48,132 nucleotides of DNA from Singulisphaera sp. (GCA_027451445.1 DAIDJG010000603.1:1-48132); one strand, 5' to 3'. Positions 22,316-34,164 are shown, counted from the first letter of the stretch. The notes: generated by a model not told the origin, from the sequence alone. Made by a program: numbers and translations.

Positions 22316-22879
22316 TTAGGAGATGCTCACGACTCGCTCCAACCAGGGGACATAGTCCTCGATCCCCGGCACTTCGAGCTCAGCGACTTTAGCCGAATCA
22401 TCACATCGTCTCAAAGTGACGGCCGCGTCCACATGGGGGGAACTGCGAAATCGTGCGACTTCCTCAGGCGACATCGGTCCACCCTGGAGCCGGAGACTTA
22501 CCTTCGAGGGTTCGCTAAGGGCTTCGTAGTAGCCGGTTTCCGTCGCGCACAAGAAGCGCTTGGCGTCGACGTGGAGACGCGCGGGCTCGACCACTGCGGG
22601 GCCGAACCGGGCGGCAAGCCACCGTCCGGCGAGCTCCTCGTGCCGATCATCAACGCCGTGGTCGGGAGCGTCGTCGGGCAAATCGTGTAAAAGGTGGCCC
22701 ACATCATGAAGCAGAGCGGCGACCACGAGTTCCGGGCTTCCACCAGCCTGCTGCGCAAAATACGCGGCCTGGAGCGCGTGAGTGCGCTGGGATACGCACT
22801 CGCCGCCATAGGCCGAGTCGCCACGTTCGGCGAAGAGTGAAAGGATCTCGTCCACGACGGGGTTTCGCGTTTGGCTCAT
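22316..22879 (-). CDS. phnZ: PhnZ-like HD-domain mixed-valent diiron oxygenase
   Basis: A 187-residue HD-domain protein of the PhnZ family, which in the known case cleaves 2-amino-1-hydroxyethylphosphonate to glycine and phosphate with O2. The residues known for PhnZ line up at nearly identical positions: Y24 and E27 in AYGGE, iron ligands H34, H58 and D59 (LLHDVGH), H80 (DDRH), H103 (RLHVDAKR) and a late Asp at 160/161 (RRCDD). ALQAAYFAQQAG and LRLQGGPMSPEE also match the family. Start ATG 22879; an in-frame GTG at 22906 is an alternative. It is divergent from a DUF5690 transporter and ADH gene. The exact substrate is inferred. Confidence 0.88.
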   Translation of the reverse strand: MSQTRNPVVDEILSLFAERGDSAYGGECVSQRTHALQAAYFAQQAGGSPELVVAALLHDVGHLLHDLPDDAPDHGVDDRHEELAGRWLAARFGPAVVEPARLHVDAKRFLCATETGYYEALSEPSKVSLRLQGGPMSPEEVARFRSSPHVDAAVTLRRCDDSAKVAELEVPGIEDYVPWLERVVSIS

Positions 22880-22933
22880 TTTTGTCCCGCCACATCCTTT
22901 CTTCACGCCCGCCTGTTAGAGTCGTGGTTTCCG
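22880..22933. promoter_or_regulatory. Short divergent control region of phosphonate-type module
   Basis: Only about 54 bases separate the phnZ-like start from the opposite transporter start at 22934 (84 if that gene starts at 22964). Both promoters must overlap each other or the coding ends, which implies joint control. No consensus boxes or operator were identified by eye. Confidence 0.4.
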
Positions 22934-24262
22934 ATGGCAACCCGAATGCGCCCACATTCTTCCATGACCCAAGCGACTCGACAACCAGAAGCCCCACGCT
23001 TGCCCCGATCCCCCTGGGCGCTTTCGCTCTGGGCGGTCACGGCGGCGTTCGGTACGTACTTTTGCACTTATGCGTTTCGCAAGCCCTGGACGGCCGCCAC
23101 CTTTGCCGACGGGAGCGTTTGGGGTGTTGCCGAGAAGAGCGTGCTGGTGACCGCTCAGATCCTGGGCTACATGGCCGCGAAGTTTGCCGGCGTCCGCGTG
23201 ATTGCCGAGATGCCCCCGGAGCGGCGGGCCGCCGGTATCCTGGGCCTCTGCGCAGGGGCTGAGCTTGCGCTCGTGCTGTTCGGAGGCGTCCCGTCGCCTT
23301 TGCACGTCGCCGCCTTGTTCCTCAATGGGCTGGCCCTGGGGATGGTTTTCGGCCTGGTGCTCGGGTTCCTCGAGGGACGTCGGCAGACGGAGGCGCTCAC
23401 CGCGGGGCTCTGCGCGAGCTTCATCCTGGCTGATGGCGTCTGCAAGTCGGCCGGCACCTGGCTGATGAAAGAGGGCATCTCGGAACGATGGATGCCATCG
23501 GCGGCGGGTTTGCTGTTCGTGCCGCCAATGTTACTCTTCGTTTGGATGCTGACGCGCATCCCGCCCCCTGACTCTCGCGACATCGCCCAGCGCAGCAAGC
23601 GTTTACCGATGGATCGGACCGATCGCGCTGAGATGCTCCTTCGACACGGGGGTGGCATTCTCGCAATCGTGGCCGCGTATCTGTTGGTCTCCGTCGCGCG
23701 CGGGATTCGGGCTGACTTCGCCCCCGAGATCTGGAACGCTCTGGCCATTAGTGCCACGCCCGCCACCTTCGCGAATTCCGAGGTCTTCGTCGCTCTCGGT
23801 GTTCTCGTCGTCAATGGGATGAGCATTTTGATTCTCGACAACCACAAAGCTTTCTTCATATCGCTTGGAGTTGGTCTTTCCGGCTGCGTCTTGATGATCG
23901 CTGCCCTGGCTGGCCGGCAGTTGGGCGTTATCGCTCCGTTCCCGTTCATGGTGTTGCTCGGCCTGGGGCTGTACCTGCCTTACGTCGCCGTGCACACCAC
24001 GGTCTTCGAGCGCTTGATCGCGATGACCCGTGATCGGGGAAACCTCGGCTTCCTGCTCTACGTCGCCGACGCCGTCGGCTACATGGCGTACGCGGCGCTG
24101 GTGCTCGTCAAGGGGTGGTTACCTGTGCAGGCCGATCCCTTATCGTTTTTCATGAACTCGTGGTGGGTCATCGGGATCTTGACGATCCTCAGCCTGGTTG
24201 CGGCCTGGTCCTACTTCGCCGCACGCTCGCCGCAGTCGCTGGTCGATGGGGTTGAATCATGA
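22934..24262 (+). CDS. DUF5690 / MFS-like membrane transporter
   Basis: About 442 residues with some 12 membrane segments (for example WALSLWAVTAAFGTYFCTYA, LNGLALGMVFGLVLGFLEGR, FPFMVLLGLGLYLPYVAVHT). FRKPWTAATF after TM1 and FLEGRRQTEALTAGLCASF are typical of the DUF5690 family, an MFS-related group. Candidate starts are ATG 22934 and ATG 22964; the second gives a shorter cytoplasmic N-terminus. The stop overlaps the start of the ADH gene (ATGA), so the two are coupled. By context it may import or export a phosphonate or its product; that is inference from the PhnZ-like and ADH neighbours. Confidence 0.8.
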   Translation: MATRMRPHSSMTQATRQPEAPRLPRSPWALSLWAVTAAFGTYFCTYAFRKPWTAATFADGSVWGVAEKSVLVTAQILGYMAAKFAGVRVIAEMPPERRAAGILGLCAGAELALVLFGGVPSPLHVAALFLNGLALGMVFGLVLGFLEGRRQTEALTAGLCASFILADGVCKSAGTWLMKEGISERWMPSAAGLLFVPPMLLFVWMLTRIPPPDSRDIAQRSKRLPMDRTDRAEMLLRHGGGILAIVAAYLLVSVARGIRADFAPEIWNALAISATPATFANSEVFVALGVLVVNGMSILILDNHKAFFISLGVGLSGCVLMIAALAGRQLGVIAPFPFMVLLGLGLYLPYVAVHTTVFERLIAMTRDRGNLGFLLYVADAVGYMAYAALVLVKGWLPVQADPLSFFMNSWWVIGILTILSLVAAWSYFAARSPQSLVDGVES

Positions 24263-25338
24263 CGGCACGAGCCGCAGTCTTCCGGGGTGTGGGCCTGCCG
24301 TTTGACCTGGTGGAGTTCCCCTTGCCGCGTCCTCGCGGCATGCAGATCCTCGTCGAGGTGATCGCCTGCACGCTCTGCGGGAGCGACCTTCATAGCATAC
24401 ACGGCCGACGTGCGGTGCCGACGCCGTCGGTGTTGGGCCATGAGATCCTGGGCCGGGTCGTCGCGTTCGGGCCGGAAGCGGCTCGTGTCGATCAAGCGGG
24501 TCAGCCCTTGGCGCTGGGCGATCGTGTGACGTGGTCACTGGTGGCGAGTTGTGGAGAGTGTTTCTATTGCTGTCGCGACCTGCCCCAGAAGTGCGAGCGC
24601 GGCTTCAAATACGGCCACGAGGCGCTTCAACCCGGCCGGGAGCTCTCGGGAGGCCTGGCCGATCATTGTTTGCTCGTCGCGGGTACGGCGATCTTCCGCG
24701 TCCCCGACGAGGTGCCGGACGAAGTTGCGTGTCCCGCAAGCTGTGCGACCGCGACGGTGGCCGCGGCGATCGAAGCGGGCGATAAGGTGGCTGATCGGGC
24801 GGTCTTGGTGCTCGGTGCCGGAATGCTCGGCATGACAGCGGCCGCGTGGTGCCGGGCACTCTGGGCCAAGGACGTGATCGTTTGCGATCACGACGCCGAA
24901 CGCCTCGCCACGGCCGCCGCCGAGTTTGGCGCAACGGCGACCTGCGCCCCGTCCGGCCTGGCTGACGTCGTTCGCGAGCGGACTGGGGGCCGAGGCGTTG
25001 ATCTGGCGCTGGAGCTATCAGGCGCTCCGGAATCGGTCACCGCGGCCCTACCGCTGCTCAGAACGGGCGGAACACTGGTTCTGGTCGGGTCGGTCTTTCC
25101 CAGCGCACCGATCGCGGTCGTACCCGAACGACTCGTCCGCGGGTGCGTCACCATGCGTGGAGTCCACAACTACGCCCCCTGGCACCTGGCGCTGGGACTG
25201 GAGTTCCTCGCGGGGCATCCGGAATTCCCGTTCGGTCGTCTGGTTGCCCCGTGGCGACCGCTCGCCGACCTGAACGCGTTGGTCGCTTCAGGGCCGCCGG
25301 TGGGGAGCTTGCGAATTGGAATCAGGCCGGTGGTTTGA
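24259..25338 (+). CDS. Zinc-type alcohol dehydrogenase, phosphonate-associated group
   Basis: A 359-residue medium-chain dehydrogenase. Catalytic zinc ligands are Cys in CTLCGSDLHSIHG and the GHE in LGHEILGRVVAFG; the structural zinc site is CGECFYCCRDLPQKC; the NAD-binding motif is VLGAGMLGMTAA with a following DHDAERL acidic strand end. The sequence style fits the group described as putative phosphonate-catabolism-associated alcohol dehydrogenases. Its start overlaps the DUF5690 stop by 4 bases. It probably oxidises a hydroxy- or aminoalcohol intermediate of the pathway; the substrate is not known. No phnY, phnW or phnX is present in this window. Confidence 0.85.
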   Translation: MTARAAVFRGVGLPFDLVEFPLPRPRGMQILVEVIACTLCGSDLHSIHGRRAVPTPSVLGHEILGRVVAFGPEAARVDQAGQPLALGDRVTWSLVASCGECFYCCRDLPQKCERGFKYGHEALQPGRELSGGLADHCLLVAGTAIFRVPDEVPDEVACPASCATATVAAAIEAGDKVADRAVLVLGAGMLGMTAAAWCRALWAKDVIVCDHDAERLATAAAEFGATATCAPSGLADVVRERTGGRGVDLALELSGAPESVTAALPLLRTGGTLVLVGSVFPSAPIAVVPERLVRGCVTMRGVHNYAPWHLALGLEFLAGHPEFPFGRLVAPWRPLADLNALVASGPPVGSLRIGIRPVV

Positions 25339-25361: not shown

Positions 25362-28300
25362 TCAGGGCTTCGGCAGCCGTGCCCCGTTGATCCAGTCGAG
25401 CAGAGCCTGGTATTCACGCGTCCCCTTCTCAAACCGAACACCGCCCGCGTGTGCTTTTTTCGAGGGATCGTTCTGGGCTTCGGCCTCTTCGGCGGCTTCC
25501 CACGTCGGTTTGTTCAACAGGAGGCTGGCGGAGGGGTTCGGCAGGTTGACAACTCGCAGCGCCGCGAGGAAATTCGCACGAACGGCCTGCGGCGACCATC
25601 GTCCGTCGGCGCCGGGGGAGACCATACGGAGGATCGTGTGCGAGCGGTGACACCCCACGCAGTTCTGCCCGTCTTCACCGGACTCGTTGAAGATCGGGAG
25701 CACCCTTGCCTCAAAGTACGCAAGATCAAGTCCTTCCGCGGCGCTCTTCCCGCCGCTGGAGCGTCCGCGTGTTTTGAGCAATGCCGTCGCGATCTCCTTA
25801 TGCCGCAAATTGCTCGACTTCGTAAGCTCCCGCAGGCCTTCTTCGACGGCCGGGTTATTCACCAGGGCGGGGCGTGCCTGGATCACCTGAAGCGTCTTTT
25901 CGCGGACGCCGCCCTGCTCTTCGTCGAGCGATCCCGCGATCACCCCAATTAGCCGCAAGTCGGCGGCCAGCGATTGGTTTCCGCCGACCAGACCCAAGAG
26001 TGCGATCCGGTGCGCGGGTGTGGCGTCGTCGAGCGCCTTGCGCACCGGGGCGTTAGCGATTTTCGATTGGGGTGCCAGCGCGAGGGCCAACGCCGCCGCG
26101 CGCGTATCAGGATCGTGGTCCGCGAGCGCTCTGGTGATTGAATCGCGGACGTCACGGCTTTGCTGCAACCCCGCGAAAGCCGCCAGCGCGCGAAACGCCG
26201 CGGCGCGCACCACGGCCGAAGAATGATCGAGGCGCCGGTGCACCGCCTCGGAGAATGTTGCGTCATCAGCGACAGGACCAGTGCGACCCACCACCGCAAG
26301 CGCTGTCGCGATGGCCTCAGGGGGACCGTTCTCGAGCAATCGAGTCAGCGTCTCCCGGACGGCGGGATCGACCTTCCCGCGCTCGACTTTCAAGGGGAAC
26401 TCCTTGGCCATCGCTCCGGCCGCGTCGCGCACGGCAGCATCGGCATCGCCCTGCATCGTCATGACGGCCAGGCTCAACGACGCGCTGCGATCGTTTCGGT
26501 CTGCGACCAAAGCTTGCAGAGCGAGACGGCGGATCGTCGGGTCAGGGTCGGACATCTGGCGGGTAAGGGCCGCTGAGAGTTTGCCGACCATGTCGTCGTA
26601 CACGAGCATCGGCTCAGTGTCATTGCCGATCCGTCCAGGGCGATCGGGGAACTCGCTCAACGCTCGGAGGATGCCCTCGCGTTGCAGAGCGTTGCTCGAG
26701 TCGAGTGCCTTGATGTACTTTTCGGCCAGTCGGTTGACGGTTGCGTGCTGCGCGGCGGTGGCGCGGTCGCGCCGATCCTGGGTCGCGAGCGCGGGAACCC
26801 AGTTGGTGTAAAGATAGCGGATGTTCTCATCACCGATGATGTAGAGCGCTTCGATGACGTTGCGCCGGACCCAGGGATGAGTCGGCACAGCGAGCTTGGC
26901 GATGAGCTGGTCCTCGATCCGGTTTCGCAGCCCAATGTCGTCACGCCAGTACCACCACCGCCACAACCCCTTGACGGCTTGCATTTGGACGACCGGATCG
27001 GAATCGTCGAGGCGTGTCAAAAGCTGGACGGCCAGCGTGAGTTCCTTGGACAGGTCGCGGAAATGGGCCGCGAAGATGCGCGTCGCCCCGCGCCGAGTGC
27101 GATCGTCGCATTTCCCCAGCAGAGGCTTCCGAATCCCTTCCCTGAAGTCGACCTGGAAGCTGGTGGAGTTTTGATCGCGCGCGTTGAGCCTGTTCCCATA
27201 AGTCCGTAATGCGAGCGCCGCAGCGCGTTGGACAACTTTGCTCTCATCTCCCAGTCGACGGTACAGCGCAGCGCTTTCCTGGTGCCACGAACGGCTGACC
27301 CGCTCCAACGCGCGGCACGCCGCGTAGCGCACGATCGGTCGTGGATCGTCGAGCAGCGCGAACAATTGCCTGGACAGCGGGCCTTCGGGAGCCGCGGATT
27401 CGTTGCCCCAGACCCGTTCCAGGTCGTCGAGCAGATGAGACGTCGAGTCGGTGCGCAACGTTTCCGGATGTGGTCCGAGCGGATCGTTCCAGTGTCTGGC
27501 GGTGTCCGGACCCGGGTAGAGTCGCGAGAGGGCCATCAGGGCCCACTGGGTCTCGCGGAACGGGGTGCGGAACTGCTCGTAGGGGCTCACATCGAACCAG
27601 CCGCCGAACTCCTTCTGGTTGACCAAAAGCGCCGCGGCCCCCTTGAGCAACGCGGGGTGATCCGAGGGCAGCCCGGCAAGCGATAATGCATAGAGACTTT
27701 CACCCGTTTGCATCTCGGTCTGTGCATAGTCCGGATCGAACTTGACCGACCAGTGGCCGTTGGGCCGCTGGAGCGAGAGCAATTGCCGGACGTTGGCTTC
27801 GACCTTCTCGGCGTTCGCCTCTTTGCCGATCAGACAGAGCCCGATCGTCTGCGCAGCGAGGTCGCGCGTGTTGGACAGTGTGCCCATCGGAAGCAGGCGC
27901 GCGACGCGGTCGCGGGTCTCGGCATAACGAGGATCCTTGGTGCGGCGAAACATCTCGTCGAGCTGTCGCCAACTGTCGGTCGCGACCTTGTAGCGACTGA
28001 CGGGGTTATTGCCGTTCGATTCGTCGGGTGGGATTGTGTCGCGGCTGTCATAGTAGAGCTTGAGGAATTCGGCGATGCCGGCGTGGGTGTTGTCGCGCGG
28101 TGTGCCGTGGGTGTCGATCAGGTTCTCGAAGTCCATCAGCATCGTCGAGAGCCGGCCCATCACGTTGGCCGGCGCGGGGATCATTCGTGCCCACAGAGCG
28201 CCAGGGTGGCCGTGGAACGGGACGGGATTGTTGGCCAGCCGATCGGTCAGGAACTCGAGTGCGAAGGGCTGCGCGACCTTGTACCCATACCGTACGGCCG

Positions 28301-29339
28301 TGAGGGCCGATTGGGTGGTGAAGTGCGTCGGGTGACAGGCGATGCACGTCGACGTTTCGTGGTGGGGATTGGCCACGCGATCCATCGGGTGCCCCTTGCG
28401 CGGGGTGTTGGCGTGCCAACTGTCGCCGGCGAGGAGCTGGAAGTCCATCGCGGACCGTACCGCCCGGTGCGCTGCGTTGGCGATCTTGGATGCGTCGCCC
28501 GCCTCGTCCGTCTCGAGATAGGGTGGTACGTCAAACAGCTTCGTTCGGAGCTGGTAGTCGGGCTGGCAAGCGTCGACGAGGACGTAATAAGTCCCCTTCG
28601 TCAGGACTCTCGTCGTGAACTTATTCGCGCCGGGACGAGGCGGACGCTCGCGTTGGAGGCTCTGGGGATCGATTCCGTGCGTGTACTCGACGGGCGTCCC
28701 GTCCTTCAACCGGTAAATACGGACATCGGGCGGCACGTCGCGATCGACGAAATCGAGAGCGAAGTATGCGAGCTTCGGCGTTTCGCCCTCGAAGTCGAAT
28801 CGGAACCAGTCCACGCCTGCGGATTGCTCTGCCTCAGTCGGCTTCGCGCCGAGCGGTAGATAAGGCCGGTCGTCCGCGAGCCCGTAGATGGTCTGGCCGA
28901 GCGTCAGTGGGTTTGCCTCCTCGGGCCGGTCGTTCGGTTCGGTCTCGAACGCCGCACCGTCCTTTTCGGTCTCACCCAGTCCGACGACGCGGATGGCGAA
29001 GGAGACCGGGATCGCGCCGGCCTTTTCGGCGTGCAGTGTAATTCGTGCGACGGTGTCCCTGGGCTGGCGGATGGTCCAGAGGACGTCGGGGTCGCCGACG
29101 TGGAGGTTCTTCCGCAGCCTGGCCGCGCCGAGCTGCACGGTTGCAGTGTATGGCCATCCTGGTGGGAGTGTGCCCGGTTGCTTGAGAGTGACAAGAACCG
29201 ACAGGTTTCTCGCCTCTCGCGGCGCGGCGACCTCGACTTCGGCCGGCTTGTCCGACTCGAGCGTTCCTTCGACGATTGGTGATTCCGCCCCGCTTGCTCC
29301 GATGGCCGTCGCAAGGCAAAGGACGAAGTTGAAGTGCAT
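25362..29339 (-). CDS. Large secreted di-heme HEAT-repeat protein
   Basis: A 1325-residue exported protein. MHFNFVLCLATAIGASGAES is the signal peptide; GAGAGG precedes the ATG at 29339. Then come beta-rich regions with an ETEPNDRPEEANPL pre-peptidase-C-like motif ending at KGTYYVLVDACQPDYQL. A CIACH heme motif is at residues 332-336. A helical toroid-like region (LSLQRPNGHWSV, ETQWALMALSRLYP) resembles squalene-cyclase/prenyltransferase folds. About 500 residues of HEAT repeats follow (PIVRYAACRALERV, PTIRRLALQALVAD, AVVRAAAFRALAAF). A C-terminal cytochrome-c module has CVGCH at 1227-1231. This resembles planctomycete cytochrome-c proteins thought to act in periplasmic electron transfer or polymer breakdown; the actual role is unknown. 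Confidence 0.85.
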   Translation of the reverse strand: MHFNFVLCLATAIGASGAESPIVEGTLESDKPAEVEVAAPREARNLSVLVTLKQPGTLPPGWPYTATVQLGAARLRKNLHVGDPDVLWTIRQPRDTVARITLHAEKAGAIPVSFAIRVVGLGETEKDGAAFETEPNDRPEEANPLTLGQTIYGLADDRPYLPLGAKPTEAEQSAGVDWFRFDFEGETPKLAYFALDFVDRDVPPDVRIYRLKDGTPVEYTHGIDPQSLQRERPPRPGANKFTTRVLTKGTYYVLVDACQPDYQLRTKLFDVPPYLETDEAGDASKIANAAHRAVRSAMDFQLLAGDSWHANTPRKGHPMDRVANPHHETSTCIACHPTHFTTQSALTAVRYGYKVAQPFALEFLTDRLANNPVPFHGHPGALWARMIPAPANVMGRLSTMLMDFENLIDTHGTPRDNTHAGIAEFLKLYYDSRDTIPPDESNGNNPVSRYKVATDSWRQLDEMFRRTKDPRYAETRDRVARLLPMGTLSNTRDLAAQTIGLCLIGKEANAEKVEANVRQLLSLQRPNGHWSVKFDPDYAQTEMQTGESLYALSLAGLPSDHPALLKGAAALLVNQKEFGGWFDVSPYEQFRTPFRETQWALMALSRLYPGPDTARHWNDPLGPHPETLRTDSTSHLLDDLERVWGNESAAPEGPLSRQLFALLDDPRPIVRYAACRALERVSRSWHQESAALYRRLGDESKVVQRAAALALRTYGNRLNARDQNSTSFQVDFREGIRKPLLGKCDDRTRRGATRIFAAHFRDLSKELTLAVQLLTRLDDSDPVVQMQAVKGLWRWWYWRDDIGLRNRIEDQLIAKLAVPTHPWVRRNVIEALYIIGDENIRYLYTNWVPALATQDRRDRATAAQHATVNRLAEKYIKALDSSNALQREGILRALSEFPDRPGRIGNDTEPMLVYDDMVGKLSAALTRQMSDPDPTIRRLALQALVADRNDRSASLSLAVMTMQGDADAAVRDAAGAMAKEFPLKVERGKVDPAVRETLTRLLENGPPEAIATALAVVGRTGPVADDATFSEAVHRRLDHSSAVVRAAAFRALAAFAGLQQSRDVRDSITRALADHDPDTRAAALALALAPQSKIANAPVRKALDDATPAHRIALLGLVGGNQSLAADLRLIGVIAGSLDEEQGGVREKTLQVIQARPALVNNPAVEEGLRELTKSSNLRHKEIATALLKTRGRSSGGKSAAEGLDLAYFEARVLPIFNESGEDGQNCVGCHRSHTILRMVSPGADGRWSPQAVRANFLAALRVVNLPNPSASLLLNKPTWEAAEEAEAQNDPSKKAHAGGVRFEKGTREYQALLDWINGARLPKP

Positions 29340-29464
29340 GGCGGTTCGCCTCTCAGCAGTTGCATTCGGTCTCGACACCGTCCCACGATGATAGCATGAG
29401 ACGCGTCTTGAGTTCGTGGAAAAAGCTCGCTCTCACGACGTGCGGATTCTCATCGTGCGCCGCA

Positions 29465-30541
<1,077 letters not shown>

Positions 30542-30566
30542 GTGTACGATCCTCCGACTGAACGAA

Positions 30567-30688
30567 AGAGAGTTTATCCGCAGATGTCGCAGATGAACGC
30601 ATATAAATAACGAATAGAAGTTTGGAGATTTATATTAGATTGCCGATTCTTAATCTGCGTCCATCTGCGACATCTGCGGATAGACTCT
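30567..30688. repeat. Inverted-repeat element between cysW and cysA
   Basis: Arms of about 37 bases at 30567-30603 (containing TATCCGCAGATGTCGCAGAT) and 30652-30688 (containing ATCTGCGACATCTGCGGATA) are inverted copies around an AT-rich core of about 48 bases. The same arms recur at 35155-35193 and 35445-35483. There is no coding capacity. The element sits inside the cys operon between cysW and cysA and would form a long RNA hairpin there. Confidence 0.85.
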
Positions 30689-30725
30689 GAGGTTTTGTGC
30701 GCCGAGCTTATCGGCGGATTCGCAC

Positions 30726-31586
30726 TCAATCTGACTGTTCGTGTGCCTCGACGCGTTTCCGCAGCGTTTCCATGCCGATGAGCAGGACAAATGAGACGCC
30801 GGCCAGGAGTACGCTGGCGGCGTAGGCGCCTTCATTATTGAAGCTTTCGATGCTGTCGTGGATATAGAGCGTCGCGGTTTGGGTGCGGCCGAGGATGTTG
30901 CCTGAGACGACGAGCAATGCACCGAACTCACCGAGCGACCGCGCGACGGTGAGCGTCACGCCGTACGCCAGGCCCCAGCGGATGGACGGCAGCGTGACCC
31001 TGCAAAACGTCCGCCAGCGACCCGCTCCCAGTGTGTAGGCGACCTCCTCCTGATCCACGCCGAACTCGCGCAGGACCGGCACGACTTCCCGGACCACGAA
31101 GGGCAGCGTCACGAACGTCGTCGCCAGCAGCATGCCGGGCCAAGAATAGACGACTCGGAGGCCGGTGCGCTCGAGCCACGTTCCGAGCCATCCCTGGGGA
31201 CCGAAGAGGATCACGAGCATCAGCCCGGCAATGATAGGCGAAACCGCGAACGGCAGGTCCACGAGGCCGTCAACGAGCGTCTTGCCCCAGAACTTGTGGC
31301 GGACCAGCACAATCGCGAACGCGAGGCCGAACACCGTGTTGACCACCGTCGCCAGCGCGGTGATCCAGAGTGTCAGCCCGAATGCCCGCTGAGCGTCGGG
31401 CGAAGCGATCGCCGCCGCGAACGGCGCGAATCCGGTTGCAAATGTCGCCCGCACCAGCGCAAGCGTGGGCACCAAAACCAACATGGCGAACCAGGCGAGC
31501 ACGGCTCCCGTGAGAAGCCAGCGTCCCGCGTGTCCCCTGCGTCTGCCCCTTCGGGCCTCGATTCTTTCGATGGATGGGTCAACCAT
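30726..31586 (-). CDS. cysW: Sulfate ABC transporter permease CysW
   Basis: A 286-residue inner-membrane permease with about six membrane segments. LVDLPFAVSPIIAGLMLVIL is the hallmark of the CysW group, and the EAA loop is VAYTLGAGRWRTFCRVTLPS, which docks on CysA. GEFGALLVVSGNILGRTQT is also family-typical. The ATG overlaps the cysT stop by 8 bases, so they are coupled. It forms the channel with CysT. Confidence 0.93.
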   Translation of the reverse strand: MVDPSIERIEARRGRRRGHAGRWLLTGAVLAWFAMLVLVPTLALVRATFATGFAPFAAAIASPDAQRAFGLTLWITALATVVNTVFGLAFAIVLVRHKFWGKTLVDGLVDLPFAVSPIIAGLMLVILFGPQGWLGTWLERTGLRVVYSWPGMLLATTFVTLPFVVREVVPVLREFGVDQEEVAYTLGAGRWRTFCRVTLPSIRWGLAYGVTLTVARSLGEFGALLVVSGNILGRTQTATLYIHDSIESFNNEGAYAASVLLAGVSFVLLIGMETLRKRVEAHEQSD

Positions 31587-32448
31587 GCCTCTGACCCCCT
31601 TGCCGCTGAAGGAGGTTCAGGGCGATCAAGATGCCGAGCGACGCGGTCAACAGCACGATCGATACGACCATTGCGCCATGGCGGTTGCCGCTTTCGATTT
31701 CGCCGAAGATGTACATCGGGCCGGTCTTCGTGTCCAACGGGCGGTTCCCCGCCACCATGATCACGCTGCCGAACTCCCCCAAGGCGCGGCTGAACGAGAG
31801 CGCTGTGCCGGTGAGGATCGCCGGCCGTAGGGTCGGCATCGTGATCCGCCGGAACGTCGTGAAAGCTCCTGCCCCGAGCGTCGCGGCGGCTTCTTCCTCC
31901 GCGCGGTCCATTTCCAAAAGCACGGGCTGCACGCTTCGGATAACGAACGGATACGTCACGAACAACAGGGCGAGCACAATTCCCGGCTTCTGGTAGATCA
32001 CCTCGAAACCGACCTTGCCGAGCAAGACGCCAAGCACGCTCGACGGGCCGTAGAGCGCAACGAGCATCAGGCCGGTAACGACGGTTGGCACCGCGAAGGG
32101 CAGGTCGATCAACGCATTCATGATCCCCTTGCCGGGGAAGGGGTAGCGGACGAGCACCCATGCCGTTGCTGTTCCGGTCACAGCGTTGATCAGTACCATC
32201 ACGGCGGCGGTCGCGAACGTCAGCTTGAGCGCATGCGACGCAAACGGGTTCGTTACTGCCTTCCAGAATGCCGAGACACCGGGTGTGACGGCTTCGTAGC
32301 TCAGGGCCATGAGCGGTAGTACCACCATCACGCCAAGGTACGACAGCGTCGCGCCTCGCAGCAGCACCCCGCCCGGTGCTGGCTTCGCGCGTTTCGGCGC
32401 CGGGGACGTTCGGCTCGGTTCGGCCGGACGGGACTCGATCACCGTCAT
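31579..32448 (-). CDS. cysT: Sulfate ABC transporter permease CysT
   Basis: A 289-residue permease, partner of CysW. MNALIDLPFAVPTVVTGLML is the CysT-type conserved stretch, followed by the EAA loop AAATLGAGAFTTFRRITMPT and LGEFGSVIMVAGNRPLDTKT. The N-terminal 25 residues are Pro/Lys-rich and cytoplasmic. GGAGAG precedes the ATG, which overlaps the sbp stop by 4 bases (ATGA). Name also written cysU. Confidence 0.93.
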   Translation of the reverse strand: MTVIESRPAEPSRTSPAPKRAKPAPGGVLLRGATLSYLGVMVVLPLMALSYEAVTPGVSAFWKAVTNPFASHALKLTFATAAVMVLINAVTGTATAWVLVRYPFPGKGIMNALIDLPFAVPTVVTGLMLVALYGPSSVLGVLLGKVGFEVIYQKPGIVLALLFVTYPFVIRSVQPVLLEMDRAEEEAAATLGAGAFTTFRRITMPTLRPAILTGTALSFSRALGEFGSVIMVAGNRPLDTKTGPMYIFGEIESGNRHGAMVVSIVLLTASLGILIALNLLQRQGGQRHG

Positions 32449-33539
32449 CGCTGGCTCTCCTTCGATCGGCCGGTGAAGAGCTGATCCCAGACTCCGCCGG
32501 TGTCATACACGTCCGTGTTGATCTTGGACCATCCGCCGAGATCCTTCATCGTGAACAGCCGCGGGGGGAGCGGAGGGCGCCGAGGATCGCGGTCGAGGCT
32601 CGGGTTGATATTGCGGAAGCCGAACTCGGAGAGGATGCCTTGAGCCTCCTCAGTGCGGAGAAACGCGAGGAACGCCTCGGCCACGGCCCGGTTCTTGTGA
32701 CGCTCCACCGACGCGTCGACGATTGTCGCCGGCCCTTCGATCAGAAGAGTCGCGGGGGGAATGATGTACGGCGCGTCTTGGTGCGTGCGCCTGCGCTGGA
32801 GTAGCAATTCGTTCTCGTAGGTGACCACCGCGTCGCCGGTCCCGCGTTCGAAGGTGGCCATGCTCTGGCGTCCCGAAGCGTCCATGTTCACGACGTTTGC
32901 CTGCACCTTCGCGAGCAGCTCGCTCCCCGCTTTGGGATTACGATGCGGCCTCGCCGTGAGCAGCCCCGCGCCATAAATCGCATTGATGTTCCAGCGCGCT
33001 CCGCCGGAGGTCTTCGGGTCGGGATAAAGCACAGCGACATCCTTGTACGCGAGATCGTCCCAGTCCCTGATCCCCTTGGGATTCCCTGGCCGAACACCGA
33101 TCACCACCAGACTACGCGTGATCATCCCCCCGCCCGGCGACGCCTTCCAATCCTTGCGCACCATTCCCGCCTTCACAAGTCGATCGATGTCCCCTTCCAG
33201 CGAAAGCGCGGCGATATCCGCATCGAACCCTGAGGCGATCGCCCGACTCTGTGCACCCGATCCGTTGTACGATTCCTCGAACTCGACCGTCCGGCCCATC
33301 TCCTTCTTCCAGTGCGCCGCAAAGGCCGGCAGGACGCCGTCATGAAAGGCTTCACGCAAGACGGAGTAGGCACCAATTGTGAGGCGATCCGTCGACACGG
33401 CGGCTTGCGAGGGTGCGCAACCGGCGATGAGGAGGGGGAGCAGTAGGTAACACGCGAAGTGCCGCCGCAGAACCTCATAACTCCCCCCCTTGGGAAGGGG
33501 GGGAAGGGGGGGTGGGCAGTGGCCGTCCGCTGACTGCAA
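32445..33539 (-). CDS. sbp: Sulfate-binding lipoprotein of ABC transporter, start damaged or unusual
   Basis: The periplasmic sulfate receptor. The mature part has the sulfate-binding family features: FEESYNGSGAQSRAIASGFD, ADIAALSLEGDIDRL, ARWNINAIYGAGLL, VVTYENELLLQ and GFRNINPSLDRD. A perfect lipoprotein signal (FACYLLLPLLIAGC) begins near 33467, but no ATG, GTG or TTG lies just before it in frame. Options are TTG 33539 (used here; inside an inverted-repeat element), CTG 33470, or a one-base frameshift. The ATG at 33478, right after the element's GGGGGGAG, is one base out of frame, and a single extra G would give MRVLRRHFACYLLL. Product identity is firm; the start is not. Confidence 0.85.
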   Translation of the reverse strand: MQSADGHCPPPLPPLPKGGSYEVLRRHFACYLLLPLLIAGCAPSQAAVSTDRLTIGAYSVLREAFHDGVLPAFAAHWKKEMGRTVEFEESYNGSGAQSRAIASGFDADIAALSLEGDIDRLVKAGMVRKDWKASPGGGMITRSLVVIGVRPGNPKGIRDWDDLAYKDVAVLYPDPKTSGGARWNINAIYGAGLLTARPHRNPKAGSELLAKVQANVVNMDASGRQSMATFERGTGDAVVTYENELLLQRRRTHQDAPYIIPPATLLIEGPATIVDASVERHKNRAVAEAFLAFLRTEEAQGILSEFGFRNINPSLDRDPRRPPLPPRLFTMKDLGGWSKINTDVYDTGGVWDQLFTGRSKESQR

Positions 33540-33654
33540 CTCAGCCTGACGCCGCTCACCGGAGCTTAACGGCTGAGGGTCGCGGGAGCAGCCGACCGCG
33601 ACCGCTGTCTGCTCACCCCCCCTACCCCACCTTCCCAAGGGGGGGAGTAATATG
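33476..33654. repeat. G-rich inverted-repeat element at the start of sbp
   Basis: Two arms of about 45 bases, 33476-33520 and 33609-33654, are inverted copies: each reads CATA, ACTCCCCCCCTTGGGAAGG, then a G-rich run ending TG(G/A)GCAG, with few mismatches. The core is about 90 bases without coding features. It lies between rrf2 and sbp and touches the sbp start. No transposase is present, so it looks like a miniature inverted-repeat element; no clear target duplication was found. Confidence 0.8.
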
Positions 33655-33714
33655 TTCGCGCTTCGCGACCGGGAGATTGGCCGATCGTCGTCCGCAGCCT
33701 GGACGTAAGCCGCT

Positions 33715-34164
33715 CTAGATCGTCCAATCCCGCACATATCCACCCTTGCGTTCCTGGTTCTCTTTGATCAAGTCCGCGAATGTCGTTTTGTCGACCACGT
33801 CGGAGATCGCCTGCCGCACCCGTCCCCAGAAGCCGAAGAAGCTGCACTCGCCGTGAAACGCACACTCCTTGGGCCGCGACTGGCTGACGCAATCGACCGG
33901 TGCGATCGGCCCGTCGACGTATCGCATGATCTCGCCGATCGTGATCTGGTCGGCCGGCTTGGCCAGCCGATATCCCCCCTCCGCCCCGCGCCGGCTCTGA
34001 ACGAATCCGCCTCCCTTGAGCTGCCCGAGAATCACTTCCAGAAACCGGATCGGAATCAGCTCCTTCTGGGCGATGTCGGCGATCTTCATCGGCTCCGGCG
34101 TGGTGTGCTCCGCCAGGGCATAAATGGCCCGGATTGCGTAGTAACACTTCGACGACACACTCAT
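33715..34164 (-). CDS. Rrf2-family transcriptional regulator
   Basis: A 149-residue winged-helix regulator. MSVSSKCYYAIRAIYALAEH and the recognition region LEVILGQLKGGGFVQSRRGA with EGGYRLAKPADQITIGEIMR are Rrf2 hallmarks. Three cysteines lie in DCVSQSRPKECAFHGEC (C-x9-C-x5-C), similar in place to the Fe-S ligands of IscR and NsrR but with different spacing, so an iron-sulfur or redox sensor is possible. AGGAAG lies 8 bases before the ATG. It is the first gene upstream of the sulfate-uptake operon on the same strand, which suggests it controls sulfate import, like CymR-type regulators; this is inference from position. Confidence 0.9.
   Translation of the reverse strand: MSVSSKCYYAIRAIYALAEHTTPEPMKIADIAQKELIPIRFLEVILGQLKGGGFVQSRRGAEGGYRLAKPADQITIGEIMRYVDGPIAPVDCVSQSRPKECAFHGECSFFGFWGRVRQAISDVVDKTTFADLIKENQERKGGYVRDWTI

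Follow-up and report, generated by a model that had tools for sequence, protein, structure and literature searches.

Several bacterial routes for cleaving the C–P bond of small phosphonates have been described. In the oxidative pathways PhnY/PhnZ, GmPhnY/GmPhnZ, and TmpA/TmpB, the C–P bond is cleaved by an oxygenase with an HD diiron fold (PMC10574752), and in phnWX clusters the accessory enzymes PbfA, PbfB/C/D, and PbfF funnel 2-aminoethylphosphonate (AEP)-like compounds to phosphonoacetaldehyde and PhnX (PMC8154272, PMC10590968, PMC12366243). Homologues of phnZ have been found in phnWX and phnWAY clusters, and (R)-1-hydroxy-2-aminoethylphosphonate (R-HAEP), a natural compound, is handled poorly by PhnW-PhnX (PMC8154272). 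The hpnW-phnX-phnSTU operon of Achromobacter with PhnHD brings together a TIGR03276 oxygenase, a TIGR03364 FAD enzyme, and PhnX in one set, with neither a clustered PhnW nor a PhnY partner, and HAEP was proposed as the substrate by modelling (PMC11203657). Here we describe a locus of Singulisphaera sp. in a stretch of 48,132 nucleotides (GCA_027451445.1 DAIDJG010000603.1:1-48132; referred to as the window), in which the region 22316–25338 contains the genes of an HD-domain oxygenase (Phn-HD), a DUF5690 protein, and an HpnZ-type zinc alcohol dehydrogenase (ADH). We propose, with a probability of roughly 60%, that a phosphonate-scavenging set of five genes is split in this genome: the window carries its uptake and C–P oxygenase half, and the HpnW-PhnX half lies on contig C320. 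The proposal rests on gene content, conserved residues, synteny, co-occurrence, and predicted fold.

Compared with the Achromobacter operon, which has the ABC (ATP-binding cassette) importer PhnSTU instead of DUF5690, an adjacent LysR regulator, and no described HpnZ, the Singulisphaera sp. set is split over two contigs (PMC11203657). Phn-HD shares the metal ligands and the YxxE loop, as well as the HD diiron fold, with PhnZ, GmPhnZ, and TmpB, whereas here no partner hydroxylase was found, PhnX is present in the genome, and the scores fell below the equivalog cut-offs for TmpB and GmPhnZ1. In contrast to the phnWX clusters, PhnW was below its cut-off, the accessory enzymes are HpnZ, a zinc ADH, and HpnW, and R-HAEP is predicted to be left to Phn-HD. 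The combination of Phn-HD, HpnW, and PhnX without a PhnY partner is already published for Achromobacter (PMC11203657); what is new here is the assignment of the DUF5690 transporter and the dependency of HpnZ on PhnX.

Results

The three genes of the window belong to a five-gene set

The source assembly consists of 10.9 Mb in 622 contigs and is 96.4% complete, with the window as contig C603, and Phn-HD, DUF5690, and HpnZ are each present as a single copy in the genome. On contig C320, a PhnX gene (331 bits; cut-off, 220) lies directly downstream of and on the same strand as a gene for HpnW, a TIGR03364 FAD oxidoreductase of the PbfB/C/D type (420 bits; cut-off, 285.1). PbfC and PbfD convert N-methyl-AEP to phosphonoacetaldehyde (PMC10590968). 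In the planctomycete loci L071, L072, and L073, DUF5690, HpnZ, Phn-HD, HpnW, and PhnX are collinear in one cluster, and in four others (L111, L114, L116, and L118) Phn-HD-HpnW-PhnX is divergent from DUF5690-HpnZ; the FAD gene following Phn-HD in the clusters of relatives was TIGR03364 (HpnW). L115 has the same three genes as the window, likewise without HpnW-PhnX adjacent to them. The three families were also found together in L119 and, with another orientation, in L141 (a Bacteroidota record) and L151 (a Verrucomicrobiota record). In the clusters of genus g3 (L079, L080, and L083), the order was HpnW-MFS-PhnZ-PhnX-PhnW-HpnZ, with a GlpT-type transporter of the major facilitator superfamily (MFS) in the place held by DUF5690 in the others.

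Because the same three families adjoin in many other genomes and co-occur across the phylum, their arrangement in the window is not a matter of chance. The preliminary description of the locus, made from the window alone, had regarded the PhnZ-type oxygenase, the transporter, and the phosphonate-associated ADH as a unit, and these comparisons bear this out, as the coordinates do for the position of the three genes, the 54-base divergent spacer, and the ATGA coupling. It had also noted that PhnY, C–P lyase, PhnW, and PhnX were missing; none of these was recognized beside the module, but PhnX is present elsewhere in the genome. The implied self-contained module without PhnX is not supported, given the HpnW-PhnX pair on C320 and the single five-gene cluster in relatives.

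A variant of the set was seen in L120, L122, L123, L130, and L188, in which DUF5690, Phn-HD, and HpnW are accompanied by a TIGR03351 "PhnX-like" hydrolase replacing PhnX. Most of these records are from Bacteroidota, and L130 is from Comamonas; the hydrolase is an unassigned phosphonatase variant.

HpnZ and its dependency on PhnX

The ADH of the window matched TIGR03366 (HpnZ, a "proposed" phosphonate ADH) with 400.2 bits, over the cut-off of 328.1, and the next-best model was threonine 3-dehydrogenase. C40, H61, E62, and the KYGH and HNY motifs are invariant, and strand 2 of the nucleotide fold ends in an aspartate (VIVCDHD), pointing to NAD as the cofactor. HpnZ is predicted from these features to be an NAD-dependent zinc alcohol dehydrogenase. 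No paper naming TIGR03366, and no catabolic 2-hydroxyethylphosphonate (HEP) dehydrogenase feeding PhnX, was found in the literature searched.

Co-occurrence was analyzed in 294 planctomycete genomes, with HpnZ counted only when over the cut-off. Phn-HD and DUF5690 were each present in 23 genomes, PhnX in 21, HpnW in 19, and HpnZ in 14. All 14 HpnZ genomes contained PhnX (p=3.9e-19), and the overlap was 10/10 after collapsing by genus (p=5.3e-13), while Phn-HD was present in 12 and HpnW in 11 of the 14; Phn-HD and PhnX occurred together in 15 genomes. Both genomes with sub-cut-off HpnZ-like proteins (G105 and G017) were without PhnX. The overlap of 14/14 with PhnX, against 12/14 with Phn-HD, indicated that HpnZ needs PhnX and not Phn-HD. 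HpnZ most likely serves a second branch via phosphonoacetaldehyde, rather than a step with the oxygenase. Genome-wide co-occurrence had been put forward in the preliminary description as a check on the module: the three families do co-occur across the phylum, but the ADH tracks PhnX, not the oxygenase.

Since HpnZ is nested in PhnX genomes, the simplest reaction for it is HEP to phosphonoacetaldehyde, and HpnZ probably makes phosphonoacetaldehyde for PhnX; the choice of HEP itself as the substrate is tentative. For PbfF, which is unrelated to HpnZ, conversion of HEP to phosphonoacetaldehyde was considered and judged less likely (PMC12366243).

An unlikely alternative is that the ADH serves the oxygenase, either by interconverting S- and R-HAEP via a keto intermediate or by oxidizing S-HAEP, so that both enantiomers would be opened to an R-specific Phn-HD. 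Sharing of clusters and genomes by Phn-HD and HpnZ is consistent with such a role, as is the next-best match of HpnZ to a secondary-alcohol oxidizer, and PbfF provides the precedent of a dehydrogenase acting as an NAD-dependent HAEP racemase for PbfA (PMC12366243). However, PbfF belongs to another fold family (pfam02826), and two genomes, G257 and G186, contain HpnZ and PhnX without Phn-HD; in G257, HpnZ is located between DUF5690 and HpnW-PhnX. It is more doubtful still that HpnZ is a clean-up enzyme and not a feeder, reducing the acetaldehyde released by PhnX to ethanol or similar. This would equally give the strict nesting of HpnZ in PhnX genomes, but HpnZ adjoins the DUF5690 transporter in 9/10 genomes having both, 7/21 PhnX genomes are without HpnZ, and the betaproteobacterial HpnZ-like proteins adjoin PhnA and PhnW, where the product is acetate.

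These betaproteobacterial clusters (L139:7744-8838 and L144:7765-8859) have the order PhnA-HpnZ-like-PhnW-PhnZ, and a search within 6 kb detected no phosphonoacetaldehyde dehydrogenase. At 289 bits, the HpnZ-like protein of L144 fell under the TIGR03366 cut-off, and the loss of the structural-zinc cysteines in the HpnZ-like protein of the two clusters might reflect a changed role. Apparent HpnZ proteins beside TmpA in L142 and L183 were weak matches (143–145 bits) to ordinary zinc ADHs and were left uncounted.

Phn-HD is predicted to act on a ready-made hydroxyphosphonate

In the profile search, Phn-HD matched TIGR03276 with 217.6 bits (cut-off, 214.6). The residues Y24, E27, H34, H58, D59, H62, H80, H103, K107, and D160 are present, including every active-site residue that had been listed at these numbers previously, and both the H..HD..H..H..D diiron ligands and the YxxE loop are intact. 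Its nearest solved structures in the PDB search were TmpB (6npa, 7e-38) and PhnZ (4mlm, 1.9e-27); a myo-inositol oxygenase-like identity was rejected, as there was no such PDB match at E<=1. Phn-HD is predicted from its sequence to be a PhnZ/TmpB-type mixed-valent diiron oxygenase converting a 1-hydroxyphosphonate to a carboxylate and phosphate. It scored below the models for TmpB (NF049941; 174.7 bits against a cut-off of 300) and for the hydroxymethylphosphonate dioxygenase GmPhnZ1 (NF052439; 166.9 bits against 300), and in the tree the clade of TmpB, which oxygenates 1-hydroxy-2-(trimethylammonio)ethylphosphonate (OH-TMAEP), stood apart from Phn-HD with support of 100/99.

The loop glutamate of the YxxE motif reaches the substrate amino group in PhnZ and TmpB (PMC8177086), and conservation of this residue as Glu27 therefore favors an aminated substrate such as R-HAEP; HAEP is reasonably likely to be the substrate of Phn-HD. 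Nine PhnZ-type proteins of Alpha- and Betaproteobacteria (L125, L128, L131, L132, L133, L139, L144, L153, and L159) formed one clade (support 89/95) with Ser, Thr, or His in place of Glu27 and all metal ligands kept. The substrate of such proteins may be a hydroxyphosphonate that lacks an amino group.

An already hydroxylated phosphonate had been suggested as the substrate, with a search for phnY in the rest of the genome as a check. No PhnY/TmpA-type hydroxylase turned up: TmpA gave nothing over the cut-off in the source genome (best 56.6 against 400), and the three PhyH-family proteins encoded elsewhere in it did not match phosphonate hydroxylase (PhnY) models. Nor was PhnW found over its cut-off in the source genome (best 141.5 bits against 400.8), and C–P lyase (PhnJ) gave no match there in a search that matched the E. 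coli control. Since the genome search gave no partner hydroxylase, a ready-made 1-hydroxyphosphonate is the likely substrate of Phn-HD, in support of the earlier suggestion.

The three PhyH-family proteins are what would favor a pairing of Phn-HD, in the manner of PhnY/PhnZ or TmpA/TmpB, with an unrecognized hydroxylase elsewhere in the genome. This is improbable: besides the results above, the three were rejected as PhnY-type hydroxylases because they scored <=21 bits, compared with 323–434 bits for the PhnZ-neighbouring hydroxylases (profile members). Moreover, among 97 PhnZ-type loci, a PhyH/TmpA hydroxylase was present within 6 kb in 22 and PhnX/PhnA in 21, but both in just 2, which indicated that the two PhnZ-type neighbourhood sets are nearly separate. 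It is very improbable that Phn-HD is a phosphohydrolase of the ordinary HD type with no link to phosphonates, since it does match the generic HD domain PF01966 but has two additional histidines as iron ligands, the YxxE loop, a TIGR03276 score over the cut-off, PhnZ and TmpB as its only PDB relatives, and consistent phosphonate neighbours.

DUF5690 as a candidate importer

The DUF5690 protein matched PF18943 with 431.5 bits (cut-off, 25), and a PDB sequence search with it gave no match. Its AlphaFold2 model, built with 38 relatives in the input, had a pLDDT (predicted local distance difference test score) of 90.3. The top eleven Foldseek matches of the model were all human SLC37A4/G6PT, and the best VIA-align match was 9w1r (SLC37A4; Z 34.2, 362 residues aligned, 17% identity), with many MFS proteins also at Z of about 30. 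When its profile was aligned by hhalign over the full length with that of the L080 GlpT-type MFS, E was 3e-4 with a probability of only 40%, and the invariant R49 and R256 of DUF5690 aligned with arginines of that protein. These in turn line up with R45 and R269 of GlpT, which bind the substrate phosphate. DUF5690 thus resembles the MFS of the organophosphate:phosphate antiporter (OPA) family, such as GlpT and SLC37A4/G6PT, in the 12-helix MFS fold, the best structural matches, and, more tentatively, the two substrate arginines; it differs in a very divergent sequence (10–17% in structural alignment) and in having its own Pfam family, and the MFS_1 model matched just 3/38 family members. The model is best read as that of a divergent organophosph(on)ate transporter, an MFS of the OPA type, and the fold, the conserved arginines, and the context make a phosphonate or organophosphate importer likely. 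DUF5690 was not mentioned in the literature searched. It was also found with a methylphosphonate pathway: a GmPhnY-type methylphosphonate hydroxylase adjoins PhnZ in L077:8283-10456 and L078:8677-9456, and in L077 it is adjoined by a DUF5690 gene.

Other features of the locus

The features of the locus are listed in Table 1. The DUF5690 and HpnZ genes overlap by ATGA, and a scan for a sigma-70-like promoter inside the spacer gave no match. Convergent with the ADH gene, 25362–29378 encodes a protein of 1338 aa with HEAT repeats and CxxCH-type haem motifs; L115 likewise has a protein of similar length (1341 aa) next to its three genes, on the side of Phn-HD. Downstream, 29465–33743 encodes an ordinary sulfate/thiosulfate-type ABC importer (CysA/W/T/P-like), the ATPase of which matched 2-aminoethylphosphonate ABC models only below their cut-offs; by these models, it is not a phosphonate importer.

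Table 1. Features of the three-gene locus in the window
Feature	Coordinates	Strand	Description
Phn-HD gene	22316..22879	-	187 aa from ATG; TIGR03276 over cut-off, TmpB and PhnZ as PDB relatives
Divergent intergenic spacer	22880..22933	.	54 bp exactly
DUF5690 gene	22934..24262	+	442 aa; PF18943, AlphaFold2 fold, alignment with GlpT-type MFS
HpnZ-type zinc ADH gene	24259..25338	+	359 aa; TIGR03366 over cut-off, motifs, co-occurrence

Discussion

In the proposed working of the five-gene set, DUF5690 would bring small phosphonates into the cell. Phn-HD, with its diiron site and O2, would convert environmental ready-made R-HAEP to glycine and phosphate without a hydroxylase step. HpnW would convert N-methyl-AEP, and perhaps AEP, to phosphonoacetaldehyde, as published for PbfC/PbfD, and HpnZ would produce the same aldehyde from a hydroxylated C2 phosphonate, most simply HEP. 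PhnX would then cleave phosphonoacetaldehyde to acetaldehyde and phosphate, so that one importer would supply two separate C–P bond-cleaving branches. The further proposal, rather speculative, is of two novelties at once: a catabolic HEP dehydrogenase (HpnZ) that feeds PhnX and a phosphonate importer family (DUF5690).

Several points weigh against this interpretation. The tree clade containing Phn-HD of the window was weakly supported (81/78), and the substrate-binding residues are common to PhnZ, TmpB, and GmPhnZ-type proteins, so that sequence alone cannot fix the substrate of Phn-HD. The substrate of HpnZ could instead be S-HAEP or the acetaldehyde that PhnX releases. The genomes sampled are related, and the p-values for HpnZ and PhnX ignore ancestry beyond genus and overstate independence. 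Nine of the 23 DUF5690 genomes were without PhnX, and hence the family is not exclusive to phosphonates. With 622 contigs and 96% completeness, a gene scored as absent may simply lie outside the assembled sequence.

The analysis gives DUF5690 a testable function and narrows the role of TIGR03366. Marine dissolved organic matter commonly contains HEP (PMC9381506, PMC5649143). If HpnZ oxidizes HEP, phosphate would be released from it hydrolytically without C–P lyase, and therefore without ethylene. The set also points to an uptake of ready-made hydroxyphosphonates by planctomycetes, and this has a bearing on which phosphonates exist in their habitats.

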